DNA of 64,000 nucleotides from Magnolia sinica (Eukaryota; Streptophyta; Magnoliopsida; Magnoliales; Magnoliaceae), in contig NC_080588.1 of NCBI RefSeq assembly GCF_029962835.1, positions 64,628,001 through 64,692,000 on the forward strand, written 5' to 3'. Shown here piece by piece: positions 11,908-49,469 of this stretch; the first letter of the stretch is position 1; each line of letters starts with the position of its first letter. The notes beneath the pieces are model-generated. The model had not been told where the DNA came from, did no database searches, and saw only the letters and a list, made by a program, of their open reading frames with translations. Made by a program: the position numbers and the translations under genes.

Positions 11908-14129
11908 GTATGTACTTCTCTTCAGATTTTATTGTGGTTCGATTTAGGGCCCACCTTTTGGTGGTCGGTAGCCGTTGATCTCTCAGCCCTCAATCTACCC
12001 TAGGTGCTGAATGCCACAAAACCTCACAGATTCGAAGATGTTTAGCTTTTAAACTTCTTTCAGCCTCTTTCTTCTAATTATCTTCATATGAATGATTAGT
12101 GCATTCTATTACTACCCATTCATGTGTTACCCACCGATTAGAGAGTAATATTTTCCAATCTGTAAGTTTTTATTGCGCAACCCCGCCTGTCGTGTGGCCC
12201 GTCGAATCGACAGTTCGTATTGCCAAACCATGGTCTCGATCTGTACATGACTAGTCATCTCAGAAAACTGCATTTTGCAATGTTCAGGACCCAAAAGTTC
12301 CTTGGACATTAGCTATCCCATTTCGTCAGTTTCACCTATGGTGAGAGGCCACTGCAGGGGCTTGTGTCTAGATTGCTACTGTTTTCATTGTGCAGGATTT
12401 TCTTGAAGAAGGAAAGTCTTTTCTTGCAGCAATGCGTGGAGTATTAGTTTGCATTTTTCGTGTTTGTTTCTGATAATGCCATTTTCTTTTTCCTTATTTC
12501 TTTTCTTCTCTGTTTTATTTTTATTTTTATTTTTATTTTTATCTTATCTGAGAAAAAGGCTTAATTGTGTAATTATAATTTAGTAGGCTATATCTTTTTT
12601 CTTTCCTTGTTTCCAATCTTTGTCAAAGGTGAAAAATGTCGAATATATTTAGTGCAGTAGAGCCTTCTTTATGTAGCTTTTATCGATCTAATTCCGATAT
12701 GATCATCCTTCTTCAGTACCATTGTCTCAGTCTGATTTTTTTTTTTTTTCCTACCCTTTCGGATCGTGTCATCATTTGGGCGATAGTTTTATTGCTTCGT
12801 CAGTTGTTATCTCAACACCTGTCTCTAGATTTTTGTGTGATAACTTGATCTGGTCCATCTATTTTTGAACATGCGTACTCCACTGTCATTTACAGTTACA
12901 CGGGCATGTTGCAATGTGTGCTGTAAGCCGATATCATTCAACATTCAGAACCTGTGTCTAGATTTTATGTGGGTCATGACTTGCTTGGAGCCTAGAGGTG
13001 CATATTCGTAGATTTTTGAACAGGCACTAACTGGCATAGACCACCATCATTTATGGTTACATGAGTATGTTGCAACGTGCTTGATAAGCTATCGTACATT
13101 CACACTCAACACCTGCAGGCATTGCATCAACTGACTGTGGTAAATGGTCCAGTGTAAATTTCCTAGATGACGAACTAGGCTGTGCCAGTATGCTTATTTG
13201 ACAGATGCTGTCTTGATTTGAATTGATCGTTGTGGTGGTGCAGATGAGCCCTGGAACCCATCCATCTCCCTTTTTGTTGTGGTACATGTTATCAGTAACT
13301 TCTGTTTCATTGATAAGAATCTAAAAAACAGTTGATGACTTTAGCGTTGATTATTATTTCACAAGATACATTCCATCATATAGAGACTCTATGTGCGATG
13401 GGACAATTCTCTTTATTCATCCCGTGGCCATCCTTCATGGTTTAGCTGATTGGTATTTGGTCTGAAATAAGTGATGCTTAATGTGAATGAGTAACATCGG
13501 CCAAGTTATGCTGGTCTATGTTAGAAAACCACCTTTATGACACATCTCTCTAGATGCCAAGCAAGCAATGAAATTGAAGTATCGTTCATATGGGGGACTG
13601 AAGAAACTGCAGATTGTTTGTTTGAATACTTTGTTGCTAACTTTCTATGTTACTTGAGAATGGCTATGGGGATCAAATGCCGTGAGGATTGGGTATGGTG
13701 GGTCCCCTAAGCCTGAATTCTCAGGAATCGGGATACAGGTATGACTAGGATTGGTTACAAGGTCATGTTATTTAACTAACAATATGGCAGGTTGGGTTCA
13801 TATTGCAATTTGTACGATTCGATAAAACTTCTTAATAACTGTCATGTCTAGAGTTCAAGACACCAGTTGATCTGGAGTCTAGTTCTCGTGGAATGGGGTC
13901 CCCTTATCCTTGTCCTTATCTGTGTATTCAAGTAAAGTACTTCAATTTTCAGAAGATCCGAGTATCGCCGCTTTGTAAAACCTGATGAGGTTGACTCTTC
14001 AGTGGTGCATATATCCATTAACACATCATACATTGTTGTTTTATATTGATTAATGCCCTTGATTGTCCTATAACATTTCATTATGTTTGTCTCTAGCCTT
14101 CTAATTGCCTCTTTATTTTTTCTGTGCAG
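11908..14129 (+). other. Leader intron of the KH gene, with a degenerate internal duplication
   Basis: GT-AG intron in the 5' UTR. Two related stretches occur in tandem, about 12812-12965 and 12960-13120: both run from TTTTTGAACA through a ...CATTTA(C/T)(A/G)GTTACA... segment to GTTGCAA(T/C)GTG and ...CTGTAAGC/...GATAAGC. This is an old duplication of about 160 bp. No coding potential seen. Confidence 0.5.
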
Positions 14130-14168
14130 AGTCAAACTGCAAAGGTTCACTATAATCTTCTTGTGGAC

Positions 14169-17100
14169 ATGTCTTTTCCAATAACACCTTCTAAGAGACC
14201 CTATGATAGGAATCCTTTAGAGCTGAATGGAAGGGCAAAGTGGCAAAAGACTGCAGCTTTCAATCCACAGCTTCAACCACTGAAAATACCCCCTGGTTCC
14301 ACTGCTTTTCGGGTACTTTGTCCTGCTTTGAAGTCGGGCAGTGTTATCGGTAAAGGTGGCACCGTTGTAAATAAGATACGCAAAGAAACTGGCGCAAAGA
14401 TCAGAATTGAGGAAACTATCCCTGGGTGTGCTGAAAGAATTATTGTTATAGTGGGTTCTGATAAAGATGCAGAAACTAGCAATGACCAGAAGAAATCAGA
14501 TGATGAATCTGATGATATTGCTAATGACTCTGATGATGCTGGGGAACAAGATGAGAGCAAGGATGATAAGGAAGTTGCTCCTATAGAGAGTCCACAATCT
14601 GAAAAGGCAAGTTCATCTGCACAAAAGGCTTTGTTGCGTGTTTTTGAGAGAATGGTCGAAGTAGATCCCGAGGTGGATGGGGAAGATGAAGCGAGTAAGA
14701 AGTCTTCCGCAGTTTATGTGAGATTGCTTGTGCTTTCTAGCCAAGTTGGTTGCATTCTGGGGAAGGGTGGAAGCGTAATTAAGCATATATCTGCAGAAAG
14801 TGGGGCGCAGATCCGGATCCTTCCTAGGGACAAGCTTCCTTCATGTGCTTCGCCCTTTGATGAACTGGTCCAGGTAACATAAAAGCCATTGGATCATGAT
14901 ATTTCTTCTTTTTTGTTAGCGAAGAAACAGACTTTGAATGCCAACTGAGAAAAAAAGTTAATTGAATCAGCTCTGGATGGCAATGGGCAAAGTAACTAGC
15001 TCACTTGCCATTTGGGGCAATGGTCATTCTGTTCAATCTGAATGTAGCAATTACCAGACCATCCTGAATCGAAGCAGTTCGCAGCCCTGTTTCATTTATT
15101 ACATCGGTTGTGCTTTATTTTTTTCTTATCTTTAGTGTCATCTGCAATAACAATCTTGTGTGGTTTAGGGTTCAAGCTTCAAAAAATTTTAACATTTAAG
15201 TTATTCTGTGGCCGTCACATTATGATTGCAGATAACAGGAGGGTTAGATGCAGTTAGGAAAGCTCTTCAACTGGTTTCTCAACAGCTTCTTGAGAACCCA
15301 CCTCGTGACCGTGATTCATTTCCTGCAAGCAAGACTGCCGGGCCATCATCTCATCCGTTTACGCCTCTTCCTCAGCCAGAAATTTACCCACCTGCAATTC
15401 ATCATTTCCCTGTTCAAGGGGCACCATATGCTGTCAGGCCTCATTCTAGCTCTGATTTTCATCCAAGCATCACCCCATCTATTCCTAAATTTCATGAAAC
15501 TGAAAGTGTTATCTTGGGTCGAATGAGGACTTCTCAGGAAATACTCACATTCAGGTTGTTGTGTATGGATGATAAGATCGGAGGTGTGATAGGGAAAGGA
15601 GGGAGCATAATAAAAGCGCTCCAACACGAAACAGGTTGTGATATCAAAATTCCTGATGCTGTTGCTGACTCAGATGACCGTGTCATAATTATATCCGGCC
15701 CTGCAGTAATGTTTCTTTTGTCCTGCCTTTTCTTTTCTGACGAGTCAACTGTTAATATCTGCTGGATTTCTGAAGTTACTTGTCGAACTTTAGGTTTTCC
15801 TCTTGATATTAATTAATGGCTACGATGCGCTGTGCATGAATATTGTCCTGATCTGCTCAGTTCATAGAGGTGGGATCAATGCGTCAATGATTGAATCATT
15901 GAATTGATGCATCCTATCTTATATATGGGGGTTGCCTGATTGGAAGATCCTAAACTGTCGATCAGTGAACTACAAATAGAGGTTAAAAAAAAGAAGAAGG
16001 TGAAAGGCTAGATGGCTAGGATTTTCCAGTTTGGGAAAACTTCTGGGCAAGCCTATCCATGGTAGGTCCCATCAGATTGGTGGTTTGGTTCATGGAAAAA
16101 ATGGATCCCACTTGTACAGTCTGGGAGCATCAGGATGCTGTTCAAATGTGACACATCTTCTTCTTATGCATAATATTTCATTATAGTCCATCTCCTTCCT
16201 GTAACTTTCTTGTTTCTTTTTAATGATTACTTCCATTGCTTTATGAGCACAACTTAAGATGACTCCATTAATCGAATAATTTAAATGGTGCAGCATCTGG
16301 ATGATAGGATCTCTGCTGCACAGGATGCAGTCCTTCGAGTTCAGAGCAGGGTTTTGAGACCTGTATCTGACGGTAAAGAGAAAAGTATGTCGTCTAGGCT
16401 TCTTGTTCCTTCTAATCAGATTGGTTGCCTTCTTGGCAAGGGCGGTGCCATAATAGCTGAAATGAGAAAGGCATCTGGTGCGTACATACGTATTTTGGGG
16501 AAGGATCAGATCCCAAAATGTGCCTCGGAAAATGAAGAAGTAGTTCAGGTGCGTGTGTTTTACCTATTGAAATGTTGAAAGATACTAGGGATGCATCCCC
16601 ATGAGCCGCACCTCATCTAGGTCATTCATCGAAGGTCCACCGTAGATGGCCGGATGGGAAAAGATCTCACTAGCCTGTTCAGAGATCCTCAGATTATTGC
16701 CACATAGGCCATTGACAGTTGGACCTACTGGATGAATGGTCTGATTAACACATGGTGGGACAGAAAGGCGATCCAATGTAGCAAACGTCTTGATCATAGT
16801 CTCAGTGCCAACCTGATGTTTGAATCTCTCCTCTCCAGATAAATGGGGAATTTGAGGCAGTTCAGGAAGCGGTGTTGCAAATAACTTCAAGGTTGCGGCA
16901 TCATCAATTCCGTGATAAGTTTCCTTCCATGAACCATCCACCACGTTCTGCTTTTCCCGATCAAGGACCTCCTTTTGTTCCCTACATGGGAAGGAGGGAT
17001 CTTTCACCACCTGGAATGTATTCTAATTTGGGCCTCCCCTTTCACAAGTTTGATGGTGTTGGGGGCCTTCCTCATCATGATGAACGATCTGCTTTTGCTC

Positions 17101-33200: not shown

Positions 33201-33631
33201 AACCGCGTCCGGGCGCGAGTACCATTATCTCACGGGCAAAAGTATTGTTACTCTTGCAGAGTAGGATACTCCATACGCATGCACATAGCCACATCCCAAA
33301 ATTCAGGTAGATTGGATCACTGGCCCCATTGGAAATGCGCCACATCCCAAAATTCAGGTAGATTAGATGATATGAAAATCCGATTAATGGAAATCTGTAC
33401 GTTTAAATCGGACACTGGAAATTTTTTTAACTGTCTTTTTGATGGACAGAAATCCGACGGTTAAGATCACCCATTCGGTATATTTCCTGGGTTATTTTAC
33501 AGTTTGAAATTGGCCCTATCACCTGAAAAGTAGGATTTATGTGCTTCCACGTGTAAATTATTTGCATGCATGAGTATGGATTGTCATAGTCGACTAGCAT
33601 AAATAACTTTTCTTATATACGAGAACATGCG

Positions 33632-34990
33632 GAGAAATTTACGACTGTACGACCCATTTATGGCCCATTTAGGAGACTAGGCCCACCTTATTTTCCCTTG
33701 CGAGAGTAGGCCCCAGCTGTACGGATGGCTTGCCAAAGGTCGAAAAAGCCCCTGCTTGTTCCGTCAAGCAGATCGGTGGTACTCGAAGACGAGCGCTGGC
33801 ACTCCTCGAACTCCGAGTTGTACGATCGGTTCAAAAGATATCAAAGTTACATGGGCCCCACAGTTACGTATTTATTATATCCACAACGTTCATCCATATT
33901 TCGAGATCATTTGGGAGCATTTTCGAAAAAAAAATAATCATATCCACAGATCAACTGGACCACACTACAAAGAGCAACGGGAAAATTGATTTTCACCGTT
34001 AAAAATTTTGTACGGCCCACCGTAACATTTATTTTCCATCCAATCCATTCACAAGGTCACTAAAGCCTAGATGAAGAGGGAAAAGAAATTTCATAATGAT
34101 CCAAAACTTCTGTGACCCTTCAAAGGTTTTCAATGGTAGACGATCAATCCTCCACAGCCTTTTACAGTGTGGTCCACTTGATAGCTAGATCTGTCTTATT
34201 TTTTGTCTCAAGCTTTAATACGAGTTTGTCCAATATATTGACGGTTTGGATATAACACATACCTCATCATAGGACTCACAAAAAGCGGTGGGAATTACAA
34301 AAGTAAAAAATAAAATAATAATAAATAAATGACCAGGAACTTATGGCTACGGTGTTTTCTATAGCTACGGATTATAACCGTAGCCATAGCCATAGCCCTT
34401 GCTGCTTCGATATGTCCTTTTATATGTATCGAAGGTCTTTCGATTAATCGAAAAAGGTCCAGAATTGTCCAACGAGTTTGCCTCAAAAATCCTGCAATTT
34501 TCGATACATATTGAAGAGTATTCGATATGTATCAAAGATGATATGACCAATAGCTACGGATTATAACCGTAGCCATAACTGTAGTCTATGCCGGTTTATG
34601 AATTTTTTTTATTTTTTATTTTTTTACATAGATAAATTTATTCAACCTACAATTTTCTCTAATACATATTTATATAAATATGAGCATATAAAAAAAAATT
34701 TCTCTCTTTTTTTCATTTATTTCTTTATTCATTTAACAAGAATATCTCCTAAACTAAAATTAGTTACTTGACGAACCTTATATGATTTTGGGGTAGGAGA
34801 AGCTACTTTAGCCAACCAACCTAGTTATTTTTCAAGATTCCATTAGATCTATGGTCGAAAATCCATTTCATTCACTTCGCGGTCAATTTCAATCAGTTCG
34901 CGGTTAATTTCATTCATTTCATTTACTTCGCAATCAATTCCATGCATTTCACGGTCAATCCCAGCGATTCTGTTTTGATTCACGGTCATT
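33632..34990 (+). repeat. Left terminal inverted repeat of the MULE
   Basis: Matches the right end in inverted orientation from the terminus through GCTTGCCAAAGGTCGAAAA, a contained short MULE-MITE (about 33848-34285), a segment with TAGCTACGGATTATAACCG words (34350-34580), an AT-rich stretch and TAGATCTATGGTCGAAAATC, into the tandem array. Confidence 0.85.
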
Positions 34991-37500
34991 TCCATGCATT
35001 TCACAGTCAATTCCCTTCACTTCACGGTCATTTGCATGCATTTCGCGGTCAAATCGCTTCAAACCATGATCATTCCCATGCATTTCACGGTCGTCCCAAA
35101 CAATTTCGTGTTGATTCACGATCGTTTCGAGGCATTTCACGGTCAATTCCCTTCACTTCACGGTCAATTGCATGCATTTCGCAGTCAAATTGCTTGAAAC
35201 CATGTCATTCCCATGCATTTCACGGTCATCCCAAACAATTCCGTGTTGATTCACGGTCGTTTTGAGGCGTTTCGTGGTCAATTCCCCTCACTTCACGGTT
35301 AGTTGCATGCATTTTGCGGTCAAATCGCTTCAAACCATGATCATTCCCATGCATTTCACGGTCATCCCATACAATTCCATGTTGATTCAGGGTCGTTTCG
35401 AGGCATTTCGCGGTCAATTCCCTTCACTTCACGGTCATTTGCATACATTTCGCGGTTAAATCGCTTCAAACCATGATCATTCCGATGCATTTCGCGGTCA
35501 TCCCAAACAATTCCGTGTTGATTCACGGTTGTTTCGAGGCATTTTGCGGTCAATTCCCTTCACTTCACGGTTATTTGCATATATTTCGCGGTCAAATCGC
35601 TTCAAACCATGATCATTCGCATGCATTTCACGGTCATCCCAAACAATTTCGTGTTGATTCACGGTCGTTTCGAGGCATTTCACGGTCAATTCCCTTCACT
35701 TCATGGTCAGTTGCATGCATTTCGCTGTCAAATCGCTTCAAACCATGATCATTCCCATGCATTTCACGATCATCCCAAACAATTCCGTGTTGATTCACGG
35801 TCGTTTCGAGGCATTTCGCGGTCAATTCCCCTCACTTCACGGTCATTTGTATGCATTTCGCAATCAATTCCCTTCAAACCATGATCATTCCCATGCATTT
35901 CACGATCATCCCAAACAATTCCGTGTTGATTCACGGTCATTTCGAGGCATTTCGCAGTCAATTCCCTTTACTTCACGGTCATTTGCATCCATTTTGCGAT
36001 CAAATCACTTCAAACCATGATCATTCCCATGCATTTCACGGTCATCCTAAACAATTCCATGTTGATTCACGGTCGTTTCGAGGCATTTCGCGGTCAATTT
36101 TCCTCACTTCACGGTCATTTGCATGCATTTTGCGATCAATTCCCTTCAAACCATGATCATTCCCATGCATTTCACGGTCATCCCAAACAATTCCGTGTTG
36201 ATTCACGTTCGTTTTGAGGCATTTCGCGTTCAATTCCCCTCACTTCACAGTCATTTGCATGCATTTCGCGATCAATTCCCTTCAAATCATGATCATTGCC
36301 ATGCATTTCACGGTCATCCCAAACAATTCCGTGTTGATTCACGGTCGTTTCGAGGCATTTCGCGGTCAATTCCCTTAACTTCACGGTCATTTGCATGCAT
36401 TTCGCGGTTAAGTCGCTTCAATTCATGATCATTCTCATGCATTTCACGGTCATCCCAAACTATTCTGTGTTGATTCACGGTCATTTCGAGGCATTTCACG
36501 GTCAATTCCCTTCACTTCACGATCATTTGCATGCATTTCACGGTCAATTTGCTTCAATTCATGATCATTCCCATGCATTTCACGGTCATCCCAAACTATT
36601 CCGTGTTGATTCACGGTCATTTCGAGGCATTTCGCGGTCAATTCCCTTCACTTCACGGTCATTTGCATGCATTTCACGGTCAATTCGCTTCAATTCATGA
36701 TCATTCCCATGCATTTCACGGTCATCCCAAAATATTTCGTGTTGATTCATGGTCATTTCGAGGTATTTCACGGTTAATTCCCTTCACTTCATGATCATTT
36801 GCATGCATTTCATGGTCAATTCACTTCAATTCATGATCATTCCCATACATTTCACGGTCATCCTAAACTATTCCGTGTTGATTCAGGTCATTTCGAGGTA
36901 TTTTACGGTCAATTCCCTTCACTTCATGATCATTTGCATGCATTTCATGGTCAATTCGCTTCAATTCATGATCATTACCATGCATTTCACGGTCATCCCA
37001 AACTATTCCGTGTTGATTCACGGTCATTTCGAGGCATTTCACGGTCAATTCCCTTTACTTCACGATCATTTGCATGCATTTCATGGTCAATTCGATGCAT
37101 TTCACAATCAATTCCCTTCACTTCACGGTCATTTTCATGCATGGAACGGTCAATGAAGGTGATTCCGCTTCACTTCACGGTCATTTCCATGCATTTCACG
37201 GTCAATTCCCTTCACTTCACGGTCAATTCCCTTCACTTCACGGTCATTTTCTTGCATTCATGGTCATTCCCGGTGATTCCGCTTCACTTCATGGTCATTT
37301 CCATGCATTTCACGGTCAATTCCCTTCACTTCACGGTCATTTCCGTACATTTCACCGTCAATTCTCTTCACTTCACGGTCATTTCCATGCATTTCACCGT
37401 CAATTCCCTCCACTTCACGGACAATTCCATGCATTTCACGGTCAATTCCCTTCACTTCATGGACAATTCCATGCATTTCACGGTCAATTTCGACAATTCT
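34860..37500 (+). repeat. Left tandem array: 136-bp units made of 21-bp monomers
   Basis: About 2.6 kb. A 136-bp unit recurs from about 34985 to 37090. Within a unit the word TTCRCGGTCR lies at offsets 8, 39, 60, 81 and 102, spaced 31, 21, 21 and 21; a decayed copy (ATGATC) lies at 123. So the unit is six 21-bp monomers plus 10 bp. From about 37090 to 37500 the array is simpler, 21/42-bp repeats of TTCACGGTCAATTCCC and TTCACGGTCATTTCCATGCA. Confidence 0.9.
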
Positions 37501-38667
37501 GTGCATTCGAGTGTTCAACCTTCCCACACTTGAAAGAAATCAAAATTGTTTGTGATCGACTACCTCCTGTCATCCAATGCCTTTGTTGGTCAGACTGGGA
37601 ACATTTCCTTGGCTGTGCTACCACACCGTTTGCGGTTGCTAAATGTGACCCAAGTTCTTCGATCTGCTGATGATGGCCCACCTTGTCGACTTCACTTCCT
37701 GTACTAGGCAACGGTTGGGATCCTTTCCCATTTGATGTATTAAATGATGCACTCTCTCGCCCATTAACATCTCTTGTACTCCAATCTGTATGTAAACCGG
37801 GTTCCTTGCTAGGCAGATGGTAGGGAACCTCCGCCACTTGGAATCCTTCACCAGAAGATGATGGCGGCCCTTTATCTATGAATTCATGGAGTAACATACC
37901 CTCCAGTGCATTACCATTTCCTTTTGCCCCTTCATGTAAATTAAGACCCTTGATTGGTGGATGGTGGCTTCCCTCTGCTTCAAATACTTTTTGAGATGAT
38001 GATAGTAGTTCGTTCTCTATCGACCCATGGAATAACACACCCTCTAAATCACTACCATCTCCTTCTCCCCCTTCATGCAAATAGATATCCTCAATTTTAA
38101 GATGGTGGCCCACTTCCTTCACTTCAGATCCTCCACCAGATGATGAAACTGGCCCTCTCTTTATTGACTCATCAAATGATATATCCTCGCGTTTGTCATC
38201 ATCTCATACCCCTTGTTCATGTAAATTAATCCTTTCGATCGTGGATGGTGGTCCACTTCTACTTCAAATCCTTTACCTGATGATTTCTCTATTGACCGAT
38301 GCAATATCACATCCTCCAGTCCATTATCATATCTTTCTTTGAGCACTTCGATCAATAGAGATTCTTTACCAGATGATGATAGACAATCATTCTCAATTGA
38401 CCCATACAACAACATACCCTCGATTCTATCACCATCTCCTCCCCCCTCTTCATTTAAATTGAGCTTCTCGATCAGCGAATGGTGGCCCACCTCCTCCACT
38501 TGAAACCCTTCCCCAGTCAATAAGATTCTGGTTGCTGGACCATTGAGGTACACTTTCGATATATCGATATTTACTCGATATATACTTACTTTGATATATC
38601 GAAATATCGGAGATATAATCGATAATTGCACTAAAAAAGCAGTTCGACATTGGACATTTTCTGACAA
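37484..38667 (-). CDS. Unidentified MULE-internal coding stretch with degenerate ~50-residue protein repeats (broken)
   Basis: Minus-strand reading frames encode recurring units of the type SSSGEGFQVEEVGHH..IEKLNLNEEGGGDGD..EGMLLYGSIEN. I see about five or six degenerate copies (38520, 38370, 38290, 38130, 37990, 37870 regions, and a weak SEVDKVGHHQQIEEL near 37690). The frame changes between about 38160 and 38220, so no single frame covers it; it may be two exons or a decayed gene. I do not recognise the protein. It could be the low-complexity middle of a DUF1985/Ulp1-type transposon protein or another captured gene. Confidence 0.4.
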
Positions 38668-38960
38668 TTTTTGATATATCGAAATCTACTCGATATATCG
38701 ATACCCCGATATATCGACATCTACTCGATTATATTGATAATACAATTTAAAAAGCATTTTGTCGCTGGACAGTGTGTGACCATTTTTGATCAATCGAATA
38801 ATAGTCGATATATCGGTCGGTTGTAAGGATGACTTACTACTATTATATCGACTAGATTTCGATATAATCGACAACTTACTCTACCATTAATCGATTAGGT
38901 TTCGATTATATCGAAGAGTTTCGATATATCGTGTTCTATTCGATATATCGAAGTGTAATT
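38555..38960. repeat. Cluster of TCGATATATCGA-type palindromes
   Basis: Over about 400 bp the self-complementary words CGATATATCG, TCGATTATATCGA and relatives recur more than a dozen times, e.g. GATATATCGAAATC, CTCGATATATCGATACC, CCCGATATATCGACATC. A weaker set (TTCGATTAATCGAAA, TTCGATATGTATC) is in both MULE arms (34395-34540 and 43010-43085). Confidence 0.8.
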
Positions 38961-39099
38961 TTTTCATTTTTTTTTCTAATGTGTTTATATATATATTTGT
39001 TTTGCTTTTTTAAGTTAGCTTGTTAGTACACACCCATGTCGGTACACACTCCATGTTATCCAAGTTGTGTTCATAGTGTGCTTCTTCTAGTCTCTTAAG

Positions 39100-39690
39100 T
39101 TGCACGGTCATTTGCATGCATTTCGTGGTCAAATTGCTTCAAATCATGATCATTCCCATGCATTTCACGGTCATCCCAAACAATTTCGTGTTGATTCACG
39201 GTCGTTTCGAGGCATTTTGCGGTCAATTCCCTTCACTTCACGGTCAGTTGCATGCATTTCGCGGTCAAATCGCTTCAAACCATGATCATTCCCATGCATT
39301 TCACGGCCATCCCAAACAATTCCGTGTTGATTCACGGTCGTTTCGAGGCATTTCACGGTCAATTCCCCTCACTTCACGGTCATTTGCATGCATTTCGCGA
39401 TCAATTCCCTTCAAACCATGATCATTCCCATGCATTTCACGGTCATCCCAAACAATTCTGTGTTGATTCACGGTCGTTTCGAGGCATTTCGCGGTCAATT
39501 CCCTTCACTTCACGGTCATTTGCATGCATTTTGCGGTCAAATCGCTTCAAACCATGATCATTCCCATGCATTTCACGGTCATCCCAAACAATTCCGTGTT
39601 GATTCACGGTCATTTCGAGGCATTTCCTGGTCAATTCCCCTCACTTCACGGTCATTTGCATGCATTTCGCGATCAATTCCCTTTATTTTT
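39100..39690 (+). repeat. Middle tandem array of the same 136-bp unit
   Basis: About 590 bp, a little over four units, same orientation as the left array, ending abruptly at TTCCCTTTATTTTTGG next to the captured AAA exons. It is separated from the left array by 1.6 kb of other sequence. Confidence 0.9.
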
Positions 39691-39968
39691 GGAGGACTGA
39701 TCACCTGCAACCGAGATACATATGTACATACAAATTTATGAAGGCAGAAACTAGGCTGTGGCTTACCACTGGTTGTAGGTGGTGATCGTTCCCCCTATTC
39801 TCTTAAGATTATAGAATAATTGTATAGATATCGATATTAGTTTCAACGGCATCACCCTAGCAAACGCTTAGTCTGACCTGAGAGAATATACACTGGGCAC
39901 TTCTCTTTTAAGTATTTCAATCAATTACTATAGGAATTTGGAACTACAAAAGGAGATTATTTCCATAC

Positions 39969-40575
39969 CTTAGCTTTTGCTTGAATAAAATCGTCCAAAT
40001 TCAGAGGCCTCAATACTCACGGTGCATTATTTGTACCTCCCTAAACCAAAAGGCAATGGCAATTTAGCATATGTGAAAAAGTGAAAGAGAGAGTAACGAG
40101 TAATCAGATGAATTGTAAAAATGCACAAGTGGACACATCAATGCCTGTTCACAAAGCCCAATGCCCATGCACTGGTCCATACATTTTCAGAAATGAAGTT
40201 ATTCCTTAAAGCATACATAAATCTGGTTCGACTCTAACTGCATCCAAGGAAATAAACAGACATCAACAGTAACCTACAAGTCAAGGAAAATAGCCGCTTT
40301 TCTTCTTCTAGAAGTTCTTGCACTGGCCTATATGTCGCTACGATACAAATGTTCTGCACAAAAAGAAAGTAAGAAATTGAGGAATATATGGCCAAGAAAG
40401 ACAACAGGTGTAGGTACTTCACCTTCAAATCACTCCCTGAATATCCTTCAGTTGCATTGACAAGTTCGTCAAATCGGAATACAAAATCTAGGTTTTCTTG
40501 GGCCAGAAATATTCTTAGAATTTTCATCCGATTCTCAGCATCTAGGAGGTCCACATATATCTTACATACCAAAAT
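39969..40575 (-). pseudogene. Captured exons of a plant AAA-type ATPase (DAA1/ATAD1-like), with introns
   Basis: Three minus-strand blocks match the C-terminal half of plant AAA-ATPases of the At1g64110/At4g28000 group: 40575-40423 (IYVDLLDAENRMKILRIFL, ATEGYSGSDLK, ending at a GT donor), about 40353-40290 (NICIVATYRPVQELLEEEKR, after a GCAG acceptor), and about 40014-39969 (RPLNLDDFIQAKAK, ending at a GT donor). The order and the intron borders are those of the host gene, so capture was at DNA level. The Walker A and B part is absent, so no ATPase activity is expected. This is a pack-MULE-type gene fragment. Confidence 0.85.
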
Positions 40576-40584
40576 TTTTGGTAA

Positions 40585-40800
40585 ACACTCTGGATTACCA
40601 AACAGTGGGAAAAGGCCTATGGTCAATATCTGAATTTTTGGTGAACAGTCCATCCAATGTGGGTCCCTTAGATCAACACTCTGGATTACAAAATAGTGGG
40701 TCTCATATGCTTTTTCTGAAATGCCTTTTGGAAGGTTGTCCACCATGAGGACTCTGGATTACCAAACAGTGGGTCTCATATGTGGGTCCCTTGAAAAAAC
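40585..40800. repeat. Local triplicated segment beside the captured ATPase exons
   Basis: CACTCTGGATTACCAAACAG or close variants occur three times (about 40588, 40676, 40751), with GTGGGTCTCATATG twice and GTGGGTCCCTT twice. It looks like a small local duplication at the edge of the captured segment. Confidence 0.7.
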
Positions 40801-40835
40801 ACTACCTAATTGAAGGCATATTCGTGTCGGTACCC

Positions 40836-41150
40836 CTAACAAATCACTCTACACATATTCGTGTCGATACCCTTAATAAACCACTCCACACATAATATTA
40901 GTGCTAACTTCACGACATCTTCGTGCTTATTGCTATAAACTATCCTATTGAACACCTCCTGTACATGTTTCTTTAGGATAGGAAATTTATGAAAGTATTT
41001 GTCTCTTAATGACTTCTTTGAACGATGGATATTGGGTATATAGAGATCACTAGTCTTCAGCCCTGTTATTAGGGTGAAGTCCATCTTGGTAAATTTTATA
41101 TGGTTCCCCTGTATCTTGAATACAAGGTTGCCTATATATCTGTGAATCAA
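40836..41150 (-). pseudogene. DUF1985-like fragment (transposon-associated plant domain)
   Basis: Minus-strand sequence FKIQGNHIKFTKMDFTLITG, LKTSDLY, then FPILKKHVQEVF and DVVKLALILCVEWFIKG has the layout of DUF1985, a plant domain found mostly in Ulp1-protease-bearing MULE/CACTA proteins. The open frame continues upstream into array sequence, so in the present copy the N-terminus would be array-encoded. It ends after about 100 residues; no Ulp1 catalytic part follows. Confidence 0.6.
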
Positions 41151-42650
41151 CATGGAATAAGTGAGAATGACCATGATATGCATGGAAATGACCGTGAAGT
41201 GAAGCGATTGGACCGTGAAATGCATGGAAATGACCGTGAAGTGAAGGGGCATGACCGTGAAATGCCTTGAAATGACCGTGAATCAACACGAAATAGTTTG
41301 GGATGACCATGAAGTGAAGGAAATTGATTGTGAAATGCATCGAATTGACCGTGGAATGCATGCAAATGATCATGAAGTGAAGGAAATTGACCGCGAAATG
41401 CCTCGAAACGACCGTGAATCAACACGGAATTGTTTGGGACGATCGTGAAATGCATGGGAATGATCATGGTTTGAAGTGAATTGACCGCGAAATGCATGCA
41501 AATGACCGTGAAGTGAAGAGAATTGACCGCGAAATGCCTCGAAACGACCGTGAATCAACACGGAATTGTTTGGGACGACCGTGAAATGCATGGGAATGAT
41601 CATGGTTTGAAGCGAATTGACCGCGAAATGCATGCAACTGACCATGAAGGGAAGGGAATTGACCGCGAAATGCCTCGAAACGACCGTGAATCAACACGAA
41701 ATTGTTTGGGACGACCGTGAAATGCATGAGAATGATCATGGTTTGAAGCGAATTGACCACGAAATGCATGCAACTGACCATGAAATGCATGTAAATGATC
41801 ATGAAGTGAAGGGAATTGACCGCGAAATGCCTCGAAACGACCATGAATCAACATGGAATTGTTTGGGACGACCGTGAAATGCATGGGAATGATCATGGTT
41901 TGAAGCGAATTGACCGCGAAATGCATGCAAATGACCGTGAAGTGAAGGGAATTGACCGCGAAATGCCTTGAAACGACCGTGAATCAACACGGAATTGTTT
42001 GGGACGACCGTGAAATGCATGGGAATGATCATGGTTGAAGTGAATTGACCGCGAAATGCATGCAACTGACCATGAAGGGAAGGGAATTGATCGCGAAATG
42101 CCTCAAAACGACCGTGAATCAACACGGAATTGTTTGGGACGACCGTGAAATATATGGGAATGCTCATGGTTTGAAGTGAATTGACCGCAAAATGCATGTA
42201 ACTGACCATGAAGTGAAGGGAATTGATCGCGAAATGCCTCAAAATGACCGTGAATCAACACGGAATTGTTTAGGATGACCGTGAAATGCATGAGAATGAT
42301 CATGGTTTGAAGTGAATTGACCGCGAAATGTATGCAACTAACAGTGAAGTGAGGGGAATTGACCATGAAATGCCTCGAAATGACCGTGAATCAACACGGA
42401 ATAGTTTGGGATGATTGTGAAATGCATGGGAATGATCATGAATTGAAGCGAATTGACCGTGAAATGCATGCAAATGATCGTGAAGTGAAGGGAATTGACT
42501 GTGAAATGCATGGAAATGACCGTGAATCAAAACAGAATCGCTGGGATTGACCATGAAATGCATGGAACTGATCGCGAAGTAAATGAAATGAATGAAATTG
42601 ACCGCGAACTGATTGAAATTGACCGCAAAGTGAATGAAATGGATTTTCGA
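41140..42650 (-). repeat. Right tandem array, inverted, same 136-bp/21-bp unit
   Basis: About 1.5 kb of the same repeat in reverse orientation (TGACCGTGAA words 21 bp apart). With the left array it forms a very long inverted repeat within the MULE. Confidence 0.9.
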
Positions 42651-43861
42651 CCATAGATCTAATGGAATCTTGAAAAATAACCAGGTTGGTTGGCTAAAGT
42701 AGCTTCTCCTACCCCAAAATCATATAGGGTACGTCAAGTAACTAATTTTGGTTTAGGAGATATTCTCGTTAAATGAATAAAGAAATAAATGAAAAAAAAG
42801 AGAGAAATTTTTTTTTATATGCTTATATATACATATTTATATAAATATGTATTAGAGAAAATTGTAGGTAGAATAAATTTATCCATGTAAAAAAATAAAA
42901 AAATAAAAAACAATTTCATAAAGTGGCACAGACTACAGTTATGGCTACGGTTATAATCCGTAGCTATTGGTCATATCACCCATATCGAAAATTGCAGGAT
43001 TTTTGAGGCAAATTCGTCGGACAGTTCTGGACCTTTTTCGATTAATCGAAAGACCTTCTATACATATAAAAGGATATATCGAAACGGCAGGGGCTATGGC
43101 TATGGCTACGGTTATAATCCGTAGTTATAGAAAACACCGTAGCCATAAGCTCCTGGCCTAATTATTTATTATTATTTTATTTTTTTTACTATTGTAATCC
43201 CCACAGCTTTTTGTGGGTCCTACTATAAGGTATGTGTTATATCTAAACCGTTCATATATTCGATGAACTTGTATTAAGGCTTGAGGTGAAAAATAAGACA
43301 GATCTAGCTATCAAGTGGACCACACTGTAAAAGGCTGTGGAGGATTGAATGTCTACCATTGAAACCTTTTTAGGGGTCACAGAAGTTTTGGATCATTATG
43401 AATTTTTTTTCCCTCTTCATCCAGGCTTTTGTGACCTCATGAATGTATTGGATGGAAAATAAATGTAATGGTGGGCCCTACAAAATTTTTAACGGTGAAA
43501 ATCAATTTTCCCGTTGCTCTTTGTGGTGTGGTCCAGTTGATCTTTGGATATGATTTTTTTTTTTTTTGATAATGCTCCCAAATGATCTCGAAATATGGAT
43601 GAACGTTGTGGATATAATAAATACGTAACTGTGGGGCCCATGTAACTTTGATATCTTTTGAACCGTTCGTATAACTCGGAGTTCGAGGAGTGTCAGCGCT
43701 CGTCTTCGAGCACCACCTATCCGCTTGAAGGAACAAGCAGGGGCATTTTCGACCTTTGGCAAGCCATCCGTACAGCTGGGGCGTGTTCTCGCAAGGGAAA
43801 ATAAGGTGGGCTTGATCTCGTAAATCGGGCTATAAATGGGTCGTACAGTCGCAAATTTCCC
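42510..43861 (-). repeat. Right terminal inverted repeat of the MULE
   Basis: Inverted partner of 33632-34990. It keeps the same nested contents in the same order, including the contained MITE (about 43190-43650) and the two GCTACGGTTATAATCCGTAG segments (42940-43140). So the nested insertions predate the duplication or homogenisation of the arms. Confidence 0.85.
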
Positions 43862-43885
43862 GAACATACCCACGGGAAGCCGACT

Positions 43886-44385
43886 CCGTACTGAGTAACC
43901 CAGTACGCTATACAGTACTGAGTAAACTCTATGGAGCCCACCGTGGATGTAGGTGTCTTATCCACGCCGTCCATCCATTTTTTCAGCTCACTTTAGGGGA
44001 TGAAGCCAAAAATGAAGGATATCCAAAACTCAAGTGGACCACACTACAGGAAACAGTGGGGATAATGACCTCTACCGTTGAAACCTTCTTAAGGCCCACA
44101 GTGATGTTTATTTGTCATCCAACCTATAAATAAGGTCACACAGACATGGATGAATGGAAAACTCAAATAATATCAGTTTGATCGAAAACTTCTGTGACTC
44201 CAAGAAGTTTTCAACGGTAGACATTCAATTTTCATTGATTCCTATGACGTGGTTCACTTGAGCTTTGTATATGCTTAAATTTTGGTCCCACTTCTTAAAA
44301 TGAGCTGATAAAACGGATGGACCGTGTCGATGAGACACATAAATCATGATGGACCCCACAGAGTACCCTACTCAGTACACTTCCA
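43886..44385. mobile_element. Short Mutator-like element F, next to the big MULE
   Basis: Left GTACTGAGTAAC..AGTACTGAGTA..GGAGCCCACCGTGGATG and right GGACCCCACAGAGTACCCTA..CTCAGTAC are inverted. Inner words CCACGCCGTCCATCC and GGACCGTGTCGATGAG pair. It starts 25 bp beyond the MULE's right end. Confidence 0.65.
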
Positions 44386-47056: not shown

Positions 47057-49469
47057 ATTATCAACCATTTACAGTAATTCTTTGAATGAAATATTTTTCT
47101 TTGAATTCAATATCTCGTATCATTATCACATACCCCTAGTTAGTATATAAGGGGCCGACTTTTCTAAGAAATAAGGAACGTCTATTTTGTACATCAAATC
47201 TGCACATGTAAGGCCCATGTTTGTTTTATCTACACCGTTGATTTAATGGCACTCATCTTGGATGGACCCTGCTTAAAAACTCCCAAATGGTAAGATTATA
47301 TTTTTGGTCTTTTCACCGTTGAATATGGATTGTTGGTGCATTTCTTCTTAACTACTTATTTGTGTGCTAACACTGGAAGGGGCATGGTCCATCTACAATG
47401 GAGGCAATTATACTTGTTGTTGCTCGAATTTGAATGGACAAGGACAATCCCTGTGGAGGTATGAGTACTTACAACACTAACATGGAAAGGACAACAAGGG
47501 TGCCTGTTATGGCAGGAGACCCTCCAATGCTTAAGTCAAGTGGATTGAATAATAGAAATGGGATGTGTTGAAATTTTTATGCTTACTTCCTTTCAATGAC
47601 CGTGGGTATAATTATAGGGTGTTTAGGCAGCTGCGTATCTAGCGTACTTTGGTAGGATACGCTGGACTTGTATATCATAGATATGCCTAAGGATCCTTAT
47701 TTGACTAGGGATCTTGTTTTCAAAAGTATTGTTGAGCTCACCTTAGTCAGCATGATCTTTGTCTAAAATCTTGTCGACTGATTCCTTTATTGGCATGAGG
47801 TGAGATTCTCTTCAGATATCTTGTATCCTAAGTTATGGTTAATTGATCAGCTCGGTACATGTGTTATGTTGCTGAGCTTTGCTCCTAAGTAGCTCATCTC
47901 GGTGTCAATTCTTCAAGGTCAACTCAGTGTTGATGCCTTGTCAACTTAAAGAATTCTTCGTATAATTCTAAGTCATTCTGGGATATTCTTTATATTGGTC
48001 GCATGTCTTGTATAGCTGGCCAGTTCAGTATTTCTCATAACAATATTGTTAGCACATATGCCTACTTATCATATCCGTACAATAAAATCGTAGCCATTGC
48101 TTAAAGTTTCAGTAGTAACATACAAAGGATGAGAATTTTAGTATATGGCCAATCCAAGAAGTGGTGATTTGGTTAGATGGGGTCAGGATCGATGAGCTTG
48201 TGCCCTAATTGGACGGTTGAGATGGCTTATGCACCCATAATTTTTATAACAATATTGAAATCTAATTTCGTATGTTCAAAATAATATAAATTATAACCAT
48301 TTAAAAACCCTTAAGGTAGTGTTTCCGGATCAAGTCCCGGTGTGTTGCTTTGTACCAGTTCTGGTGTGCTTCAACAAAAAAGAGAAGCAACGCACCAGTT
48401 TTGTCTGCTTCAACTAAAAAAGAAAAATAAAAAAAAAAGGCTAGTGGCCCGCTTAGAGTAAAATGACTATTTTGACCCTTTAGTTTTCTCAATGCTGGTG
48501 AGTATCTTGCCCATCTAGACTGACAGGAGCCCAAAAATCTCAGTGAATGGATGAGCCTGAGCACACAATCTGTGGTCATTTTTTATTTTTTAAAAAATCA
48601 ACGGTTCATATAATTTTCCTATGGATTTGGATCACACACGGATCTCGTCTTTGGAAGGTGGCCATATTAGAGGCGTGAAATATGTTGAATGGTCTGGATT
48701 GATGCACATGCAGGAATCGTGCGGTGCACATGGGTTTATTATATACTTTTACATCTTGCTATTAGTCATCCTAAAGGGTGAATAAATATAAAATCCGAAC
48801 CGTTGGATCAATAGGCTGCCCCTCTATTGAATTACAGCTCAAAAATTACACCGATCAGATATTCCAAACAGTTCAATCAATTGCCTAACATTCGACACTC
48901 ACCAAGAGCCCACAAAAAAACCTATTGATGTGAACATAGAAACATCTAATTAGTTCTGATTTTGGATGAGCTCTAATCCAATAGGCGATATTTGTGTTGG
49001 ACGGTCCAGATGGACGAAAAGGCAATGTTTGTGAAACTTACCACATTAATGCAAAAAATACCTATTTAGGCATGGGCAAATCTGTCATTTCATGGCGATC
49101 CAATGGGACATTCTTGAATTACAATAAGATTGCAAGTGAAACGATGAAAAAATACAGTATTATTTTTAATCTTGGATAGATAAAAAATAATTAAATAATT
49201 AATTAAAACAATAAAAATGTATTAATATAATAAAAGAGAGGAGAAGGTTGGAGGGGAGTGAGGGGGGCAACACTATAGAAAGGGATGTAGCTACATTGAA
49301 GACCACGCCCCTTAGTCAAATTCCTTTTTTTTTTTACTAATCACATTCCAAAACAATTCATAAATCCATGCTTACATCCACACGTGTATGTGCGTGTACA
49401 CGTGTATCTATAACAAACATGCAATGGTGTCAATGGGCTAGGAGAGCCCATTGGTCTCTCATGGGCCTG
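47057..49469. other. Gene-free spacer
   Basis: No gene seen. About 47600-48060 is a stretch of repeated GGTCAGCTCAGT-like words that may be part of an old LTR, not identified. About 48660-48900 carries degenerate words of the second MITE-like family (GGTCTGGATTGATGCACATG). Confidence 0.5.

Follow-up and report, generated by a model that had tools for sequence, protein, structure and literature searches.

Arrays of 21-bp monomers in a Mutator-like element of Magnolia sinica and beside DUF1985 genes: candidate targets of a VANC/KIU-type protein

The window analyzed here is a 64,000-nucleotide stretch of Magnolia sinica (RefSeq assembly GCF_029962835.1, contig NC_080588.1, positions 64,628,001 to 64,692,000, forward strand). 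It contains a 10,230-bp Mutator-like element (MULE) at window positions 33632–43861, in which sit three tandem arrays, A, M, and B, built on the word TTCRCGGTCR. Arrays of mostly the same spacing and clade-specific words lie beside DUF1985 genes elsewhere in this genome, DUF1985 being a domain carried by the VANC proteins of Arabidopsis VANDAL elements (PMC5735166), and we propose below that the arrays are probably targets of such a protein. The features of the element are listed in window coordinates.

33623..33631, no strand: left target-site duplication GAACATGCG, matching the right flank at 7/9 positions
33632..34864, plus strand: left terminal inverted repeat, non-array part, starting GAGAAATTTACGACTGTACGACCC, 93.4% identical to the right arm
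34865..37489, plus strand: array A, about 19 copies of a 136-bp unit, 56 exact motifs
37484..38685, minus strand: anonymous open frames (239 and 174 aa), also in loci L040, L042, L043, and L044, no Pfam match
39103..39683, plus strand: array M, 4.3 copies of the 136-bp unit, 14 exact motifs
40234..40758, minus strand: frame partly matching an AAA+ lid, at a score under the curated cut-off, without a match in six relatives
40851..41129, minus strand: fragment of a DUF1985 (VANC/KIU-type) gene that points inward from array B
41166..42640, minus strand: array B, about 10.8 copies of the 136-bp unit, 32 exact motifs, inverted
42641..43861, minus strand: right terminal inverted repeat, non-array part, minus-strand start GGGAAATTTGCGACTGTACGACCC, from comparison of the inverted arms
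43862..43870, no strand: right target-site duplication GAACATACC, matching the left flank at 7/9 positions

Motif arrays in the arms of a Mutator-like element

A preliminary description of this DNA had reported TTCRCGGTCR recurring at 21-bp steps, and exact counts, autocorrelation, and Tandem Repeats Finder (TRF) agree with it. The window holds 103 exact matches where 0.26 are expected, a number that 0/100 shuffles reach. Three blocks account for 102 of them (56 on the plus strand at 34860–37500, 14 on the plus strand at 39095–39690, and 32 on the minus strand at 41140–42650), and 1 lies outside. The blocks are as real as that description held, with the correction that B runs opposite to A and M. 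Autocorrelation in each block peaks at lags 136, 272, 42, and 21; lag 21 reaches 0.54–0.57 against a median of 0.26, with lag 20 at 0.29–0.30 and lag 22 at 0.24–0.25. TRF finds a period of 136 bp in 18.9 (A), 4.3 (M), and 10.2 (B) copies with 21 bp nested inside it, so that both periods proposed as a check are present. The composition claimed for the unit, six monomers plus 10 bp with a decayed last core, also stands: its layout is 31+21+21+21+21+21 bp, i.e., five 21-bp monomers and one of 31 bp, and the core of the sixth monomer, ACCATGATCA, has decayed. Wrap-around alignment gives ~209 monomer equivalents, near the earlier estimate of about 200.

Units succeed one another at 136 bp in 24/28 intervals, at 135 bp in 3, and at 157 bp (136+21) in 1. 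Core-to-core steps in the window are multiples of 21 bp in 123/160 cases and exceed a multiple by 9 or 10 bp in 34/160. The closest relatives of array units often sit in another block. Across the 1.84-Gb genome TTCRCGGTCR occurs 57,473 times forward and 53,630 times reverse, compared with 2,341 and 2,177 for the reversed word. A coding heptad protein repeat was rejected as an account of the arrays, whose frames are open over long stretches (21 being a multiple of 3), because the 136-bp unit shifts the frame with every copy and a related clade uses a period of 23 bp.

The opposite orientation of arrays A and B follows from their position in the arms of one long inverted repeat (arms of 2.75 kb, 89% identical), with M in the interior. 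The element ends read GAGAAATTT and GGGAAATTT. Six relatives were taken, two of them showing one end only, and the 9-bp target-site duplication is perfect (9/9) in 4/4 relatives with both ends (L039, L040, L041, and L042), as judged by eye with ends placed at G[AG]GAAATTT. For the outer 328 bp of the left arm there were 3,070 first-look candidates, and the 40 that were scored comprise the window and 39 places at 92–95%. The 20-bp terminus with up to 2 mismatches occurs at 1,708 places in the genome and the reversed pattern at 7. A 9-bp target duplication and terminal inverted repeats common to many copies, both features of MULEs, are thus found here. The motif is present at 29/29 other inverted-repeat terminus loci examined, and the 10-kb stretches from the six relatives all retain TTCRCGGTCR and are without any DUF1985 match.

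The window copy is probably an old, non-autonomous member of the family; it keeps both arm arrays and only a fragment of the DUF1985 gene. Its anonymous frame at 37.5–38.7 kb shows no clear coding constraint (dN/dS 0.5–1.2 in six pairs, with the shifted frame lower in 5/6), and the piece at 40234..40758 (minus strand) that weakly resembles an AAA+ lid was probably captured from a host gene. A 115-bp repeat in which the palindrome TCGATATATCGA is frequent lies at 38554–38960, between arrays A and M, and related words occur in the inverted repeats.

DUF1985 genes and the arrays beside them

The window's DUF1985 piece matches Pfam at 5e-7, below the curated cut-off, and a profile of 30 DUF1985 domains from the same genome at 5.5e-40. 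It is 85% identical to the domain of L063 and 77% to that of L045, and a tree groups it with both (support 0.999). These two loci, the nearest to the window piece, are also the only 2/30 best-scoring DUF1985 loci with TTCRCGGTCR. The piece has a dN/dS of 0.46–0.49 (three pairs, few changes). Comparison of DUF1985 with solved structures gave no sequence match up to E 1, and DUF287 is not among the Pfam matches of the scanned frames, no genome-wide DUF287 search having been made.

In Arabidopsis, VANC21 binds a 9-bp motif that is arrayed densely, in one orientation, in tandem repeats (PMC5735166). Given such arrays and a DUF1985 fragment beside array B, we looked for arrays at other DUF1985 loci. 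There were 819 candidates, of which 150 were scored, and arrays were first read in the 1.5 kb upstream of the 30 best-scoring. At 28/30 the strongest upstream period is 21 bp (25 loci) or 23 bp (3 loci), above all 20 shuffles made for each; autocorrelation values at these 28 are 0.46–0.88, five of them at 0.46–0.49. In 34 tiles taken as controls from the rest of the window, the maximum listed value is 0.42 at lags 20–24, with none ≥0.5, and 0.47 at any lag. The strongest upstream lag at L061 is 19. Array cores vary by DUF1985 clade, including TTCACGGTCA, TACTCGGTCA, TTTGCCCCGCT, TTTGGCCCGCT, and CCTCGCTCA, with GTCGTGGTTG in the 23-bp group, and at least 6 distinct cores stand beside DUF1985 genes. 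The word TTTGCCCCGCTSA occurs 17,492 times and its reversed form 0 times. Among 50 DUF1985 loci (the 30 and 20 further ones) core patterns were found at 44, in 41/44 on the gene strand only. Same-orientation motif arrays together with a DUF1985 protein, the combination that marks the VANC system, are therefore present at these loci.

For the 20 further loci a prediction was fixed before their upstream stretches (720 bp each) were read, with identity measured to the L045 domain: TTCACGGTCA at ≥75%, words of TTCACGGTCA or TACTCGGTCA type at 61–71%, and words of TTTGCCCCGCTSA type at 54–58%. The prediction mostly held. TTCRCGGTC is found in 9/9 genes at 77–85% identity (weakly in L075, which has a single exact copy and lacks a strong period; in L083 copies lie on both strands) and in 0/6 genes at 54–58%, where four carry TTTGCCCCGCT arrays, one CCCTCGCT, and one GGCCCGCT. 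Both genes at 71% identity (2/2) have arrays of TTCGCGGTC or TTCACGGTC type. Array words also correlate with protein distance (Mantel r 0.77 over 26 loci; five dropped, namely the 23-bp group, L061, and L074).

Two other repeats were seen at these loci. Lag 21 is the strongest in 25/30 loci (L045–L074) about 0.6–0.9 kb downstream of DUF1985 as well, and in the four frames read (L050, L057, L066, and L071) this is a coding heptad repeat, e.g., EREELKK; such repeats resemble the tandem peptide motifs reported for VANC proteins. At L060, L069, and L073, degenerate 13-bp AACCTA-rich, telomere-like repeats lie upstream of the 21-bp arrays and adjoin them.

We examined gene layout with the 150 scored DUF1985 matches, the best 150 of 882 C48 candidates, the best 150 of 804 for PF03108, and the best 150 of 1104 for PF10551. 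Between the 150 matches of each, DUF1985 and C48 form 59 pairs, with C48 2.18–2.58 kb downstream on the same strand where 0.04 are expected, and 0 pairs with C48 upstream; a second list of 25 clade genes, hand-picked for a nearby C48, was excluded from this count. PF03108 lies within 35 kb of 28/150 DUF1985 matches, always convergent (0 divergent or same-strand; 0.86 expected). In the TTCRCGGTC clade it is convergent with 6/101 DUF1985 matches (0.58 expected), on a list that omits four partial matches at ≥71%, including the window's own. PF10551 was tried as a transposase marker near DUF1985 and found no support (1 pair within 20 kb compared with 0.34 expected, for the 104/150 DUF1985 matches typed). 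By coordinates, relatives thus show both the layout of KAONASHI/KIU elements, with DUF1985 and C48 opposite to a transposase, and a Mutator transposase, of which none was found in the four frames scanned in the window copy.

Window-family ends can also be tied to these genes. One PF03108 match lies, by coordinates, 9.5 kb inside a terminus of the window's family. Two apparently complete elements of 28.5 and 22.6 kb with window-family termini, located by coordinates alone, each hold a clade DUF1985-C48 gene 2.4–2.8 kb inside one end and reading inward. On contigs C1–C3, a perfect window-family terminus lies within 40 kb of 3/15 clade DUF1985 genes compared with 0/27 others. Separately, 15/150 scored PF03108 matches fall on one strand within 0.51 Mb of contig C5 (104687089–105198382), with frames of 634–843 aa; this tandem cluster of Mutator-derived genes is perhaps domesticated.

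Core conservation and helical register

The preliminary description had also proposed to test whether CGGTC is more conserved than its spacers, and the difference is slight. Consensus in the window arrays is 0.917 at CGGTC columns, 0.918 over the core, and 0.908 at non-core columns, values so nearly equal that they approach the outcome which that description had itself named as telling against it. With CpG columns removed the core stands at 0.955 compared with 0.915 for the spacer (permutation P = 0.006, a post hoc split). A contiguous-core test gave P < 0.05 at 0/29 single loci; pooled, it gave P = 0.026 for the window arrays and P of 0.33 or more for six other groups (0.33 for the clade loci). 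C>T and G>A changes make up 194/391 array substitutions, and 103 of them fall at 22 CpG columns of the 136, as would be expected of methylated, silenced copies.

Indels give a different view of the same arrays. Array against array, the two arms differ by 3 indel events per 157 substitutions, compared with 12 per 79 for the flanking inverted repeat (P = 0.0005, Fisher's exact test); when homopolymer events are left out, the indel counts are 3 and 8 (P = 0.019). Comparison with the six relatives shows a weaker, uneven deficit, with 32 indels per 747 substitutions in the arrays and 42 per 352 outside them; L040 and L042 account for 25/32. Register between the arms is thus kept better than in neighboring DNA, and homogenization could do this as well as selection.

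Placement of all cores on one face of the helix, as the preliminary description proposed, is no more than plausible. Over the window, 10 clade loci, and 19 GCCCCGCT loci, core-to-core steps are multiples of 21 bp in 455/563 cases and about 21n+10 in 83 (the CCTCGCT group, with 65 spacings, was dropped from this count, its two core patterns being offset by one base). The +10 steps are absent from the GCCCCGCT loci and reflect mainly the inherited 31-bp monomer. One related clade shows ±1 spacings (14/181) and the 23-bp clade breaks the rule of two helical turns, both of which tell against one-face phasing. Moreover, 21-bp spacing is no proof of phasing, because tandem amplification yields such spacing for free. 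What stands of the register claim is the scarcity of indels between the arms, alongside a core barely above its spacers.

A candidate element-encoded binder and its alternatives

The element, its arrays, the gene layout of its relatives, and the clade-specific pairing of genes with arrays suggest an explanation that we favor and think rather likely: in cis, the arrays would serve as targets for an anti-silencing protein of VANC/KIU type, which the full-length members of this Mutator-like family would encode. In addition to an N-terminal DUF1985 domain, this protein would have a coiled-coil stretch and a protease domain of C48 (Ulp1-like) type. It would recognize about ten bases, TTCRCGGTC in the window's family, occupy many sites that face the same way at intervals of whole helical turns, and remove DNA methylation at the element ends so that the element's genes and transposase can work. 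Binding, the role of the 21-bp spacing, and demethylation are what we infer. A protein-binding array, proposed at the outset for a transposase or a host factor, thus remains the best reading; from sequence, the likeliest binder would be an element-encoded DUF1985/VANC protein rather than a host factor, with a transposase retaining some probability. We regard as possible, and lean against, a more ambitious version, in which DUF1985-C48 proteins have radiated within one genome, every lineage having a word of its own on an invariant lattice of 21 bp (a 31-bp step allowed). The lattice would be required for cooperative one-face loading, and hundreds of natural protein-operator pairs would spell out VANC-type recognition.

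Several observations weigh against an element-encoded DUF1985 binder, in addition to the consensus and contiguous-core results above. The window holds a DUF1985 fragment only, and in the ten window frames scanned, four of them inside the element, neither a C48 nor a Mutator domain was matched. The two apparently complete elements contain none of the best 150 PF10551 or best 150 PF03108 matches. L074 has a DUF1985 match and no array within the upstream stretch read. L087 and L088 (61% and 63% identity) have, contrary to prediction, no detected array in the 720-bp stretch, and the 64% gene, L086, has a TTCTCGGTCA-type array that is mostly antisense. As a linkage control, the 350 nt next to the DUF1985 domain track the protein better than the array words do (Mantel r 0.915), so the pairing shows a traveling unit and not binding, and linkage alone could explain it. 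Finally, known VANC elements have degenerate inverted repeats and those here are long.

The known systems nearest to this family share some of its features. VANDAL elements and their VANC proteins have in common with it the Mutator superfamily, a DUF1985 protein, and same-facing tandem arrays of a short motif in noncoding DNA (PMC5735166), with a motif that differs between related families (PMC5735166; PMC10398659). Their inverted repeats are described as degenerate (PMC10398659), compared with 2.75-kb arms at 89% identity here, and the 21-bp monomers, the 136-bp higher-order unit, and the long inverted repeats set this element apart from VANDALs. The VANC21 motif, YAGTATTAY, has 1 match in the window, at 49155, outside the element, which distinguishes it from VANDAL21. 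KAONASHI elements carry KIU, a VANC protein with an Ulp1 domain, and share DUF1985 and C48 in one gene opposite to the transposase; the account of them describes non-TIR (non-terminal-inverted-repeat) MULEs of Arabidopsis (PMC13317346), unlike the array-containing long inverted repeats of this family. The same review, citing Sasaki 2022, says that Arabidopsis KIU-carrying elements recognize motifs in their own group (PMC13317346), and the kind of system proposed here is therefore already known. ULP-carrying TIR-MULEs of grapevine and melon share ULP sequence within MULEs that have inverted repeats, as far as described; the words "tandem" and "subterminal" are absent from the main text of that paper (PMC2528002). 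In searches of open-licence papers we found no report of 21-bp phased arrays, of the higher-order unit, or of clade-wide gene-array pairing.

Long inverted repeats with internal tandem repeats are known from Foldback, and we know of no DUF1985 gene in Foldback, Galileo, or Tetris. Galileo and Tetris share this architecture with the present element (PMC3573991, PMC4079207). All three are animal elements, and Galileo belongs to the P-element superfamily.

At each end of the element an array (A or B) is enclosed in the inverted arm, arrays are retained in copies without a detected DUF1985 gene, and a transposase domain is present in related elements. These are the properties expected if the element's own Mutator-type transposase bound the repeated word in both arms, with the DUF1985 gene merely nearby. 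We think this unlikely, if the most credible of the alternatives; block M is interior. The GCCCCGCT arrays listed for the first 7.9 Mb of contig C1 lie away from perfect window-family termini (by eye), so that ends and motif seem to change together, a pattern that favors neither binder.

Neutral satellite growth within long inverted repeats, of the kind known from Foldback, Galileo, and Tetris, in which slippage and unequal exchange amplify a 21-bp unit and the gene association is hitch-hiking, would account for a core not clearly more conserved than its spacer, for array units whose nearest relatives are often in another block, and for the linkage control. It fits less well with a 21-bp period that recurs beside DUF1985 clades with different cores, nearly always in one orientation, and with the depletion of indels relative to substitutions between the arms (weaker and uneven against the six relatives), and we rate it slightly below the transposase.

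The arms could form a long hairpin and C>T and G>A substitutions fall at CpG columns as in methylated DNA, as would suit an array that is a host-factor platform or small-RNA source, helping or silencing the element without an element-encoded binder, but the array word changes clade by clade, which makes a single host factor hard to uphold, and we consider this account very improbable.

The discoverers of VANC left the parts that set its target specificity for future work (PMC5735166). Many DUF1985 genes beside at least 6 distinct cores, mostly at one spacing, constitute a natural data set for a specificity code. If an element-encoded DUF1985 protein does bind these arrays, the anti-silencing strategy would extend past Arabidopsis elements into elements with long inverted repeats, a feature connected with small RNAs and silencing in earlier discussion (PMC10398659); a motif able to direct methylation loss would be a possible epigenome tool.

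Elsewhere in the window, the sequence at 43924–44363, just beyond the right end of the element, is ~73–85% like window places at 31–33, 46–56, and 61 kb, and another repeat family, on this similarity, flanks the element's insertion. KH-domain frames at 14097–15816 (plus strand) are probably host-gene exons.

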